Assembly (NCBI RefSeq): GCF_000004195.4
Contig: NC_030677.2
Span: forward strand, 67,852,222 to 67,916,221
DNA from: Xenopus tropicalis
Taxonomy: Eukaryota; Chordata; Amphibia; Anura; Pipidae
Direction: 5' to 3'
Length of the DNA: 64,000 bases
Below the pieces are notes generated by a model that was not told where the DNA came from, made no database searches, and saw only the letters and a program-made list of their open reading frames with translations. Below, piece after piece: positions 4,190 through 62,189 of this stretch. Numbering within the stretch: position 1 is the stretch's first letter; every line of letters starts with the position of its first letter. A program made the translations under genes and the position numbers.

Positions 4190-5335
4190 TTTAAGCTCAT
4201 AGCTTAAATCGTCCATCCCCTTTAACAGTTTAGTTTCATGTCTCTGCACTCTCTCCAGCTCATTATTATCCTTCTTAAAGGACTGGAGCCCAAAACTGCA
4301 CCGCATACTCAAGGCGAGGCCTTACCAGGGACCTATAAAGGGACAAAATTATGTTTTTATCCCTTGAGTCAATGCCCTTTTTTATACAAGACAGCACTTT
4401 ATTTACTTTAGTAGCCACCGAATGACATTGCCTGGAATTAGACAACTTGTTATCTACAAAAAAAACCCAGATCCTCCTCCATTAAGGATCCCCCCAACAA
4501 ACTACCGTTTAGTAGATAGCTCACATTTATATTATTTCTACCAAAGTGCATAACTTTGCACTTGTTCACACTGAACCTCATTTTCCAGTTTGCTGCCCAG
4601 TTTTCTAATTTTGTCAAATCGCTCTGCAAAGTGGCAGCATCCTGCATGGAACTTATAGTTTTGCACAATTTAGTGCCGTCAGCAAAAATAGAAACAGTAC
4701 TGTCTATGCCCACCTCCAGGTCATTAATAAACAAGTTAAAAAGCAAAGGACCAAGGACTGACCCCTGCGGTACTTCACTAACAACTCTGGTCCAATTAGA
4801 AAATGTTCCATTTACCACCAATTTTTGTAATCTATCCTTCAGCCAGTTCTCTATCCAATAACAAATATTATATTCTAGGCCAATATTCCTCATTTTATCA
4901 TTAACCTTCTGTGAGGTACGCTTTAGCAAAGTCCAAGTAGATGACATCAACTGCCATTCCAGCATTGAGGTTCCTGCTCACCTCCTCATAAAAGGCGACT
5001 AAATTAGTCTGGCAAGATCTGTTACACATAAAACCATGCTGGCACAAACTAATAGTATTTTGAACTGCAATGTATTCAAGTACCATATCCCTTATTACCC
5101 CTTTCAAAAGCTTTCCTACTACTGATGTCAGACTAACAGGCCTATAGTTTTCAGGCTAAGAACGGGATCCCTTTTTAAATAACGGCACCACATTAGCAAT
5201 CCGCCAGTCTCTCAGCACCATGCCAGACCTCAATGAATCCTGAAAGATTAAGTGAAAAGGTTTGGCAGTCACAGCGCTAAGCTCATTTAATACCCTGGGA
5301 TGAATCCCATCTGGTCTTGGACCTTTGTTTTAAGT
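4190..5335 (-). pseudogene. CR1-like LINE reverse transcriptase, broken
   Basis: A degenerate CR1/L2-clade reverse transcriptase read on the minus strand. In order it shows the ENYRPVSLTS fingers motif near 5140, HGF...C.TNL, a VIYLDFAKA palm strand near 4935, VPQGSVLGPLLFNLFINDL near 4740, and the catalytic box at about 4695. The box reads FADGTKL, so one of the two catalytic aspartates (FADD) is glycine. After the RT come LVRPRLEYAVQFWAP and ELERVQR motifs near 4290. Frameshifts and in-frame stops (for example between the LDFAKA and ENWLKDRL frames near 4910) break it. No endonuclease domain or 3' tail is joined to it. It cannot encode an active enzyme. Confidence 0.85.
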
Positions 5336-23601: not shown

Positions 23602-24508
23602 CAGGGCCGCCATCAGGGGGGCACAGGGGGCACAGTTGTCCCGGGCCCGGACGATCGGCGCTTTAAAGGGGGCCCGGCCATGATACAGCTTTTTAGCCCC
23701 CTTTAAAGAACTCCGGGCCCCATTGGTTCATTGGTGGCCAGCGGGAAATTTTATTGGTTGCGCCCCGTGCGTGCGTCCCTACGCACGGGCGCAACCTTTT
23801 AAAATGTTAAGATGCAGCGGGGAGGATGCAGAAGAAGAAAGTTGCCAGTGGGAGAGCTGGAGGATGCCAGAGGAAGCCGCAGGGGAGCGGGAGTAAGTAG
23901 CTGGGGTGGAGAGCGGGAGTAAGTAGCTGGGGTGGAGGGCGGGAGTAAGTAGCTGGGGTGGAGGGCGGGAGTAAGTAGCTGGGGTGGAGGGCGGGAGTAA
24001 GTAGCTGGGGTGGAGGGCGGGAGTAAGTAGCTGGGGTGGAGGGCGGGAGTAAGTAGCTGGGGTGGAGGGCGGGAGTAAGTAGCTGGGGTGGAGGGCGGGA
24101 GTAAGTAGCTGGGGCGGGGAGCCAGAGGAAGTCACTGGGGGTTGAGCTGGGGGAAGCCACAGGCGGACTCTGGGGGGGGAACTGGGGGGAAGCTGGAGGA
24201 TGCTTGGGGGGTTTGGGAGCTGGACGATGCTGGGAAGGACTCTGGTGGGGGAGCTGGAGGTTTCTGGGGGGGAGCCGGAGGATGCTTGGGGGGGTGGGAG
24301 CTGGAGAATGCTGGAGCTGGAGGACCGGGGAGGGGGTTAACTGGAGGATGCTGGGGGGCCCTGGCTACCAATGTTTTAGGGGGGCCCTGGCTACCAATGT
24401 TTTAGGAGGCCCTGGCTACCAATGTCTGTGTGGAGGGGCCATTGGGGGGCAGGGCGTGGGAGGAGGGGGGCCCAGAAAATTGTGTTGTGATTTCTGATGG
24501 CGGCCCTG
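23602..24508. mobile_element. GC-rich hAT with exact TSD, 907 bp
   Basis: Ends CAGGGCCGCCATCAG and CTGATGGCGGCCCTG are exact inverted repeats, flanked by identical octamers CCTGGGGG (23594-23601, 24509-24516). No transposase. The interior has a GC-rich palindrome (TGCGCCCCGTGCGTG / TACGCACGGGCGCAACC, 23757-23796), a 26-bp minisatellite and G-rich purine tracts. GC content is far above the flanks. Confidence 0.92.
23887..24120. repeat. 26-bp minisatellite, nine units
   Basis: Nine tandem 26-bp units of form GCGGGAGTAAGTAGCTGGGG plus TGGAGG; units 2-8 are identical. Because 26 is not a multiple of three, the same peptide repeat appears shifted in all frames, producing spurious proline-rich frames on the minus strand. 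Confidence 0.95.
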
Positions 24509-57724: not shown

Positions 57725-58515
57725 CTTTTATCAAAGAAGAAGAACTCTATAACATAATATTTTCCTTAACCCTTTTAGTGATACTGTCAAATTCTACAGC
57801 ATTATCTGGCACACACAGGGTTAACCTACAATAAAACGTATGCAAACTGTACTAGTTTTACTATATAAAGCTGTGCTGCTTTATACATATATGCCATTAG
57901 ATATTTGCACAAGGGCTAATGTTATGCAGTTTGTCACCAAAATTGATTAGAAAGATGTTGGTTGTGTGGATGTCTGTATGGCCAGTATATGTGTTGCATA
58001 CTAAAAACTGCTTACTATAAACAACTGTGACTTGAAGAGAAGTGGCTGTGAAATAACATCACAAATGCAGTACAGAGTACAGTCAGGCACCAGGTGAATT
58101 TAATCCTTAGATTCATTTTCACAGTCATCAGCATTTTTGGATGCTTATAATTGAGATTTTTTTTACAATATAAAATAATCAGTGATTATAATGTTGATGA
58201 TGATGACTCTATTTATGACCCTATTCTGGAAGATTTACTTGACTTGAACTTCAGTAGAAACCTTCCTACCACAGGTTCTTTACACATATTAACTATCTAC
58301 TAGGATGTTTTTGTTTAAGGCCCCATGTAAGGTCCAGTGTAACTTAGGTATAGGAAAATATTGATGTGTCCACTATTTAGCCAAGAATATTTATGGCTAC
58401 CAATGCATTTTCACAACTAACCTCATTCTAATAAATCAAGCTAGTCTTTCAGTTGTATCAAGAAAAGAAAATCAGACTTCTCCAACTGGTCAAGCATTAC
58501 AGAACTGGATTGCCT
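57725..58515. other. Unassigned non-coding sequence
   Basis: No gene or repeat boundary supported. Confidence 0.4.
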
Positions 58516-58525
58516 GGTGGGTGAC

Positions 58526-58756
58526 CAGGGTCGGACTGGAACACCGGGAAAAATCCCGGCGGCCCAGACCTGACCCTTGCTGGTGCTCCCCCTGCCCAAC
58601 CGCTCCTCCCCTGACGCGTTAAATTTACACTTGCTCGAAGAGGATGACGGGTTGGGGGCCCTTGGGGGGGGGTTAGTGGACGCAGCCGGCAGGGGCACCT
58701 GTAGGGCCCCTTGGGCGGGAGCCCCGGTGGGCCCTTCACCCCCCAGTCTGACCCTC
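58526..58756. mobile_element. GC-rich hAT MITE with exact TSD
   Basis: Ends CAGGGTCGGACTGG and, inverted, GAGGGTCAGACTGG, flanked by identical TGGGTGAC (58518-58525, 58757-58764). 231 bp. The GC-rich open frames on both strands are artefacts of composition. Confidence 0.85.
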
Positions 58757-58764
58757 TGGGTGAC

Positions 58765-61253: not shown

Positions 61254-61355
61254 CATTAGGACAGTGTTTTTCAACCTTTTTTGGGCAAAGGCACACTTGT
61301 TTCATGAAAAAAATCACGAGGCACACCACCATTAGAAAATGTTAAAAAATTTAAC

Positions 61356-61510
61356 TCTGTGCCCAGCAGCAGTGCCCCCCTAGTACACTGGTGCCCAGCA
61401 GCAGTGCCTCCCTAGTACATTGGTGCCAAGAGCAGTGCCCCCCTAGTACATTGGTGCCCAGCAGCAGTGCCCCCCTAGTACATTGGTGCCAATAGCAGTG
61501 CCCCCCTAAG
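61356..61510. repeat. 32-bp minisatellite, about five units
   Basis: Units of form GTGCCCAGCAGCAGTGCCCC plus CCTAGTACATTG, two of them shortened by one base. Within the Pack-type hAT. Confidence 0.9.
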
Positions 61511-61799
61511 CAATGAGTGCTTGAATGAACTGCACCATCCCATTCTACATCTATTGGGGAATCAGGCCATCTAGGAAGCAAACCTTAAATGTAGAAATTC
61601 ACATCATTTTATTGTAGGCAAATGAACTGAAATATATTGGCTGCCCTCACTGACTATTTTATCCAATTGCTCTACCTACACGCTACCTGGGTTCTCTACA
61701 CATTCCTCCACTCAACACTGTTAGTTGGGCAAGTTAGATGTGATTCGCATGGGGTACGAGGGTGGGCTCCTGTCCCTCTCATCTGTGGGCCGCACTTAC

Positions 61800-61935
61800 T
61801 CTGTACTGCAGCCCGGGTGTCCCGGCTCTGGCTATCAACTACATCCCCGGAGCGCACATCTAGCAGCACGGCTTTCACAGAACTGGTGCCTACATCAATC
61901 CCCAGCACCAAGCGGGAGCCGCCGTCAGCCTCCAT
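61800..61935 (-). pseudogene. shpk: Captured first exon of FGGY sugar kinase
   Basis: ATG at 61935 opens 45 codons containing LVLGIDVGTSSVKAVLLDV, the N-terminal phosphate-binding motif (G-I-D-x-G-T-[ST]-S-[VA]-K) of FGGY carbohydrate kinases. The spacing and following RAAVQS best resemble sedoheptulokinase, which phosphorylates sedoheptulose in the cytosol; the assignment among FGGY kinases is from memory. The frame is intact to an excellent splice donor (AGA/GTAAGT at 61799-61794), phase 1. Downstream codons are intron-like. Since it lies inside a hAT with exact TSD, it is a captured copy rather than the gene itself. Alone it cannot encode a kinase. Confidence 0.6.
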
Positions 61936-61982
61936 GTGTCACTGTCAAAGTCCACAAACAGGGAGGCGGGACTTGAAAAGAA

Positions 61983-62040
61983 CCCCGCCCCCCCGCTACG
62001 GAGACAGAGATAAACTTACTTCCGGATAGCGTGACGTGAG
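61983..62040 (-). promoter_or_regulatory. Captured promoter-like segment
   Basis: Upstream of the captured ATG: a GC box (CCCCGCCCCCCCG, 61984-61996), an ETS site CCGGAAGT (minus, 62025-62018) and a CRE-like GTGACGTGAG (62031-62040), in CpG-rich sequence. These are typical of TATA-less housekeeping promoters. Activity is inferred. Confidence 0.5.
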
Positions 62041-62189
62041 GGAGGCGGCAAGGCAAGTGTGGGCAGAAGCACGGAAATGAGAGGCTGGCAAAGTGTGGAG
62101 GGGCGGACCAGGGGCGGCACACCAGGCAACATCTCGCGGCACACTAGTGTGCCGCGGAACAGCGGTTGAAAAACGCTGCATTAGGAGAT

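Follow-up and report, generated by a model that had tools for sequence, protein, structure and literature searches.

A young hAT transposon of Xenopus tropicalis that appears to have captured and spread the first coding exon and 5' flank of SHPK

A non-autonomous hAT transposon of the western clawed frog almost certainly took up about 0.6 kb of the sedoheptulokinase gene SHPK on a single occasion, and then spread the resulting chimera to at least ten further sites some 2 million years ago. The copy described here, as read from the sequence, is an element of 917 bp at positions 61262-62178 of a 64,000-nucleotide stretch of Xenopus tropicalis DNA (C1:67852222-67916221; hereafter the window), and the genome searched for its relatives comprised 1,451,301,209 bases in 167 contigs. 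With positions 61640-62110 as the query and all 12 of 12 candidates scored, the captured block was found at 12 genomic places: 11 hAT copies with 95-100% identity to the query, and one parental locus with 90%. This recurrence is far beyond chance. The parts of the window copy are as follows, with the strand given where one applies.

61254-61261: left target-site duplication CATTAGGA, exact 8 bp, identical to the right one
61262-61276: left terminal inverted repeat CAGTGTTTTTCAACC, the same end as in siblings
61262-61507: 5' hAT part, common to siblings without the capture
61355-61507: minisatellite within the hAT part, units of ~31-32 bp, from sequence reading and repeat matches
61503-61507: CCCTA microhomology at the left junction, between minisatellite and SHPK intron 1
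~61503-62107, minus strand: SHPK-derived captured block, comprising the start of intron 1, the exon 1 coding part and 5' flank
61603-61608, minus strand: AATAAA from SHPK intron 1, shared by the parent and 9 of 11 copies
61696-61935, minus strand: unspliced open frame, 79 codons and stop
61781-61782, minus strand: position of the parental donor, with AT in place of GT in the window copy and L013
61783-61935, minus strand: SHPK exon 1 coding part, 51 codons
61794-61799, minus strand: GTAAGT, out of phase and possibly a cryptic donor; the parent and 9 of 11 copies have GTGAGT here
61936-62107, minus strand: captured SHPK 5' flank by alignment to the parent, presumed promoter region
61985-61990, minus strand: GC box at -55 from the ATG, at the same distance in the parent
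62018-62025, minus strand: ETS site CCGGAAGT at about -90, one base nearer the ATG in the parent
62032-62039, minus strand: CRE-like site TCACGTCA, absent from the parent
62108-62114: 7 bases at the right junction, absent from the present parent and from siblings
62115-62178: 3' hAT part, 64 bp, common to siblings
62164-62178: right terminal inverted repeat GGTTGAAAAACGCTG, 15 bp
62179-62186: right target-site duplication CATTAGGA, exact 8 bp

The ends of the element have the two features by which hAT transposons are recognised, namely short terminal inverted repeats (15 bp long, a single position being mismatched) and 8-bp target duplications, and a sequence-only reading that had preceded this analysis was correct in reporting both. 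Thirteen sibling elements that share the 5' end and lack the captured block were fetched. Both ends could be read for 12 of these, the thirteenth (L029), whose 3' end was not found, being left out of the counts of ends and duplications. Exact 8-bp duplications surround all 12 siblings, as they do 8 of the 11 copies with the capture, and TA stands at the centre of every one of these 20 duplications, which therefore have the form nnnTAnnn. A duplication consensus of this form is described for Buster-group hATs (PMC3517528), and by its duplications the family may be placed in that group. Three siblings (L027, L025 and L030, of 395, 460 and 552 bp) possess neither the captured block nor another CpG-rich body. 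Nine others, including L026 (C2:66717708-66717966), carry a different CpG-rich body with the strings TTTATAAC, TGACGTCA and CCAATGACA. We rejected the idea that this body is a second rare capture, since it has 1944 first-look candidates genome-wide, a number that argues for an abundant hAT family. An expanded array of the family minisatellite is also apparent at C8:114784280-114788767 (G000), where matches extend over ~4.5 kb.

The duplications around the 8 capture-bearing copies differ from one another, and the remaining three copies each lack one end: L013 and L017 have no recognisable 3' end, and L018 has no 5' end. The left junction string occurs in 10 of 11 copies, the exception being the truncated L018, and the right junction is alignable in 10 of 11, having been lost in L017. 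Its exact string is retained in 8 of 11, with an adjacent deletion in L015 and one substitution in L018. Because both junctions are common to the copies wherever they survive, and the duplications are separate, these copies are most simply explained by a single capture and subsequent transposition. Host DNA enclosed by the two ends of a single TIR transposon, a parent elsewhere without those ends and multiplication by transposition are the properties of a Pack-TIR, and all of them are found here. The element was thus rightly called a Pack-type hAT in the sequence-only reading, which had also named as possible the dispersed copies with their own duplications that the genome search returned.

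The parental match consists of C2:30636896-30636993 and C2:30637104-30637549, with SHPK on the minus strand, and the ends of this hAT family are absent from the 10 kb searched around parental exon 1, allowing up to 3 mismatches. Six further coding regions, SHPK exons 2-7, follow in order on the minus strand, the last open frame ending at C2:30624076; they contain what we take to be the sedoheptulokinase motifs known from human SHPK. In the parent, model positions 2-38 of Pfam FGGY_N are matched by exon 1 and 41-89 by exon 2, each with a score a little short of the curated cut-off. No Pfam match came from exons 3-7 searched singly, whose identity rests on these motifs, on a protein search with the last exon and on agreement by eye with frog proteins. 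The last-exon search returned 51 proteins, four of them named Sedoheptulokinase (from bird and mammals) and most unnamed. A search with exon 1, which could return only proteins of ~260-820 residues, gave 14 matches, all labelled PF00370: 11 sedoheptulokinases of frogs and toads, two hypothetical proteins of Ascaphus and one unnamed protein. NCBIfam found no match in three of four SHPK exons and a chance-level match to another family in the fourth. The exon 1 peptide, the exon 1/2 junction and the downstream kinase exons all identify SHPK as the source. The sequence-only reading had foreseen a sedoheptulokinase-like parent elsewhere, with kinase exons downstream and without this family's ends, and had named as adverse outcomes a parental gene in the window itself or a mere repeat with no kinase parent; the gene proves to lie on C2, with exons 2-7, and the repeat to have SHPK as its parent.

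On the plus strand of the parental locus lie four coding regions, each of which matches the NCBIfam model for the lysosomal cystine transporter, in the right order and below the whole-protein cut-off; Pfam places a PQ-loop in two of the four, in one case above cut-off. By these sequence matches, the plus-strand regions are CTNS. With CTNS on the plus strand and SHPK on the minus strand, the two genes are divergent; the nearest recognised CTNS exon begins ~6.9 kb from the SHPK ATG, and since CTNS lies divergently beyond SHPK, the captured block may hold part of a divergent SHPK/CTNS promoter. Another hAT-like element of ~2.5 kb, with ends CAGGGATCCCCAACC and GGTTGGGGATCCCTG, resides in SHPK intron 1 (positions 2412-4880 of L019; C2:30634411-30636879) and abuts the parental segment exactly at the left capture boundary, with an imperfect duplication of CCCTAAGC. 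The pipeline of Tan et al. demands that no transposable element lie within 100 bp of the parental copy, and here this other element adjoins it; that filter is a guard against segmental duplication and stands outside the definition of a Pack-TIR.

The extent of the captured exon follows from the parental gene. Exon 2 starts at TTTTAG|GGGAAAGAACAG, and the reading frame continues into it only with an exon 1 that ends in CAG|GTGAGA, so that the captured coding exon occupies 61783-61935. In all ten other proteins of the alignment, those of other frogs included, the junction ...SECG.Q|GKEQDV is identical or almost identical, and the sequences of two short, frog-like read-through proteins depart from it exactly at this exon 1/2 boundary. 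Exon 1 of the parent has 50 codons, and the extra glycine of the element is unmatched in all ten aligned proteins. An earlier count of 45 intact codons was therefore right that an intact coding exon had been captured and too low for its length, which is 51. The FGGY kinase motif read in it earlier is supported: the 51-residue peptide matches Pfam FGGY_N (PF00370) at E 7e-6 with a score of 26.2 bits, a little short of the 28.8 set as curated cut-off for this 245-position model. A PDB search with 45 residues was weak, with a best E of 0.008 to a ParM fusion and 0.13 to xylulose kinase.

The splice donor turned out differently from the sequence-only reading, in which GTAAGT was taken as a captured consensus donor. 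That hexamer is 17 nt upstream of the true donor and is present only in the window copy and L015, and we rejected it as the captured donor because it is out of phase with exon 2. The true donor, CAG|GTGAGA, survives in nine of the 11 copies; a +1 G>A change has turned it into CAG|ATGAGA in the window copy and L013. The window copy probably cannot splice normally through the SHPK donor, and with this donor dead its transcript would either remain unspliced or be spliced at the GTAAGT upstream. All 11 copies retain the ATG and the 51 codons as an open frame. The unspliced frame has 79 codons in 10 of 11 and 80 in one, and a protein search with the 79-residue frame matched the two short read-through proteins.

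Positions 61750-62130 have a GC content of 0.61 and a CpG observed/expected ratio of 0.60, compared with 0.31 for the whole window, in keeping with the CpG-rich block noticed earlier. The GC box, ETS and CRE-like sites, ATG and AATAAA that had been read along with it are likewise all found in the window copy. Among the 11 copies, the exact ETS string is missing in three (L009, L010, L014), the -55 GC box in two (L014, L015), the CRE-like string in three (L011, L015, L017) and AATAAA in two (L017, L018). In the captured block, C>T changes affect 9 of 480 CpG sites, against 12 of 2932 for other C/G transitions, a 4.6-fold difference per site. Comparable CpG counts in siblings are 6 of 760 in a set of 20 picked by similarity, which is biased, and 11 of 324 in nine picked by their 5' end; the block is not significantly different from either set (Fisher p 0.11 and 0.25), in tests of low power. 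Within the limits of that low power, a block that mutates like methylated DNA speaks against a promoter constantly active in the germline.

For the origin of the element, the copies, their duplications, the common junctions and the low divergence are observed directly, and the steps that follow are our reconstruction. A short hAT would have acquired from SHPK the 5' flank, the 5' UTR, the exon 1 coding part in full and the beginning of intron 1, the pieces presumably being joined by microhomology-guided repair or template switching. At the left, the junction falls in CCCTA, common to the minisatellite and SHPK intron 1 (TTACCCTAAGC); at the right, CGG is held in common and is accompanied by the 7 bases that match neither the present parent nor the siblings. 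Microhomology of this kind on both sides fits repair or template switching, which has been proposed for multicopy animal Pack-TIRs (PMC8277862). The left capture boundary is CCCTAAGC, where the other hAT-like element of intron 1 now sits. This coincidence was noticed after the fact; it may be due to chance, or the boundary may have been fixed where a hAT cut into the parent. The chimera would then have moved to at least ten further sites, making 8-bp nnnTAnnn duplications, with hAT transposase probably supplied in trans.

The timing of these steps can be estimated from divergence, the ages being rough and the substitution rate that of a 2016 source as quoted in PMC9250109. Copies differ from their consensus by 31 non-CpG substitutions in 5959 sites (0.52%) and show a mean pairwise difference of 1.3%, which suggests that amplification took place about 1.6-2.2 million years ago. 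The non-coding consensus differs from the parent at 23 of 406 sites, corresponding to a split at about 9-10 million years. Across the whole block, the parent is only 90% identical, with several indels and ~110 bp of intron found in the parent only, so that the capture has to be placed long before amplification or attributed to a diverged allele; if the captured allele was already diverged, the capture itself can be younger than the split.

As for what the captured DNA does at its new sites, we lean modestly towards a reading in which the Pack-type hAT is correctly identified and its cargo is an inert passenger, the flank starting no transcription there and the exon never being spliced. Seven coding substitutions at 5 sites are found among the copies, 6 of which change an amino acid, giving no sign of constraint on the peptide; this agrees with passive carriage, as do the CpG decay expected of methylated DNA, the loss of promoter-site strings or of the donor from some copies, and the absence of a fusion protein among the 14 matches to exon 1. 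The last of these is a weak test, because the search reached only proteins of ~260-820 residues and returned no X. tropicalis entry. The universal retention of the start codon and open exon, and of the donor in most copies, would speak for function, although at so young an age it is expected without selection too. It is improbable that the element is instead a self-contained mini-gene, in which the captured promoter, the unspliced 79-codon frame and the intronic AATAAA together yield a short polyadenylated message with no need of a host exon. The near-constant length of that frame and the presence of AATAAA in 9 of 11 copies would suit such a message, as would the two short frog-like database proteins that read SHPK exon 1 into the intron; yet both are predicted read-throughs from short contigs, and so no proof of expression, and the peptide is unconstrained.

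That the window simply contains SHPK was considered and rejected, and the related view that it holds the gene or a pseudogene invaded by hAT pieces has next to no chance of being correct. The coding exon is indeed 98% identical to SHPK (3 of 150 sites differ from the parent), but SHPK with its downstream exons is on another contig, the other copies have these junctions too, and separate duplications enclose 8 of the 11.

Each copy brings to its new surroundings, on its minus strand, the SHPK 5' flank, the start codon and 51 codons. If the cargo is not passive, transcripts may begin in some copies and be spliced through GTGAGA to exons of the host, the exon of the 9 donor-intact copies being the one that could be joined to a downstream host exon; a transcript of the window copy would read through the 79-codon frame to the captured AATAAA or use GTAAGT. 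The most far-reaching form of this idea, which we consider unlikely, is that of a self-spreading vertebrate gene-trap cassette consisting of a divergent SHPK/CTNS-type promoter, a start codon, exon 1 and a working donor, which would have brought new transcription starts and an N-terminal exon to up to ten sites within ~2 million years. At least one host gene would then possess an SHPK-headed transcript, and hAT cutting may have set the left boundary.

Pack-MULEs of plants similarly capture gene parts and spread them by transposition; they resemble the SHPK element in both respects, and belong to another superfamily and another kingdom. In animals, Tan et al. 2021 (PMC8277862) describe 370 Pack-TIRs in 100 genomes, of which 208 have hAT ends and 25 belong to the western clawed frog; they report only four as multicopy, three from the frog and one from alligator. 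Their Pack-hAT-N8_XT shares with the SHPK element its western clawed frog host, the combination of hAT with a 5' piece of a host gene, a parent that occurs once elsewhere, and multiple copies whose duplications differ. As described there, it contains 291 bp of CAPSL 5' UTR and occurs on three chromosomes, whereas the SHPK element carries ~600 bp of SHPK, with the exon 1 coding part, flank and donor, and occurs at 11 places. The main text of that paper does not mention SHPK, and the literature searched names no capture of SHPK by a transposon. Tan et al. required a unique best match and a parental copy with no transposable element within 100 bp, and the SHPK element may have been lost to these filters, or it could be one of the other two multicopy frog cases in their report.

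Mar of Drosophila is also a short non-autonomous hAT MITE with 8-bp nnnTAnnn duplications; in the account given of it (PMC3517528) host-gene cargo is not described, unlike the SHPK element with its piece of a host gene. The joining of hAT DNA and a host gene in a frog has a counterpart in dm-W exon 4 of Xenopus laevis, which derives from hAT-10 (PMC9250109). There, according to that source, transposon DNA became a host exon, whereas in the SHPK element an exon of the host was turned into cargo of a transposon. Pack-type hATs have been published before, multicopy ones of the frog among them, and the SHPK element belongs with these, its cargo including a coding first exon with flank and donor. 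Set against the four multicopy cases described for 100 animal genomes (PMC8277862), the SHPK element is young, has 11 copies and has a clear parent. Since it carries the pieces with which a transcript begins (5' flank, ATG, first coding exon and donor) and exists in both donor-intact and donor-dead copies, it allows one to test directly whether functional promoters and first exons are spread by DNA transposons in animals.

Elsewhere in the window, positions 58500-58760 form a GC-rich patch (~0.61-0.65 in 200-base windows) in AT-rich surroundings. Overlapping long open frames with proline-rich tandem repeats, apparently a minisatellite, occupy 23779-24364, and an open frame of 175 amino acids on the minus strand at 4450-4977 resembles, by eye, a reverse-transcriptase fragment.
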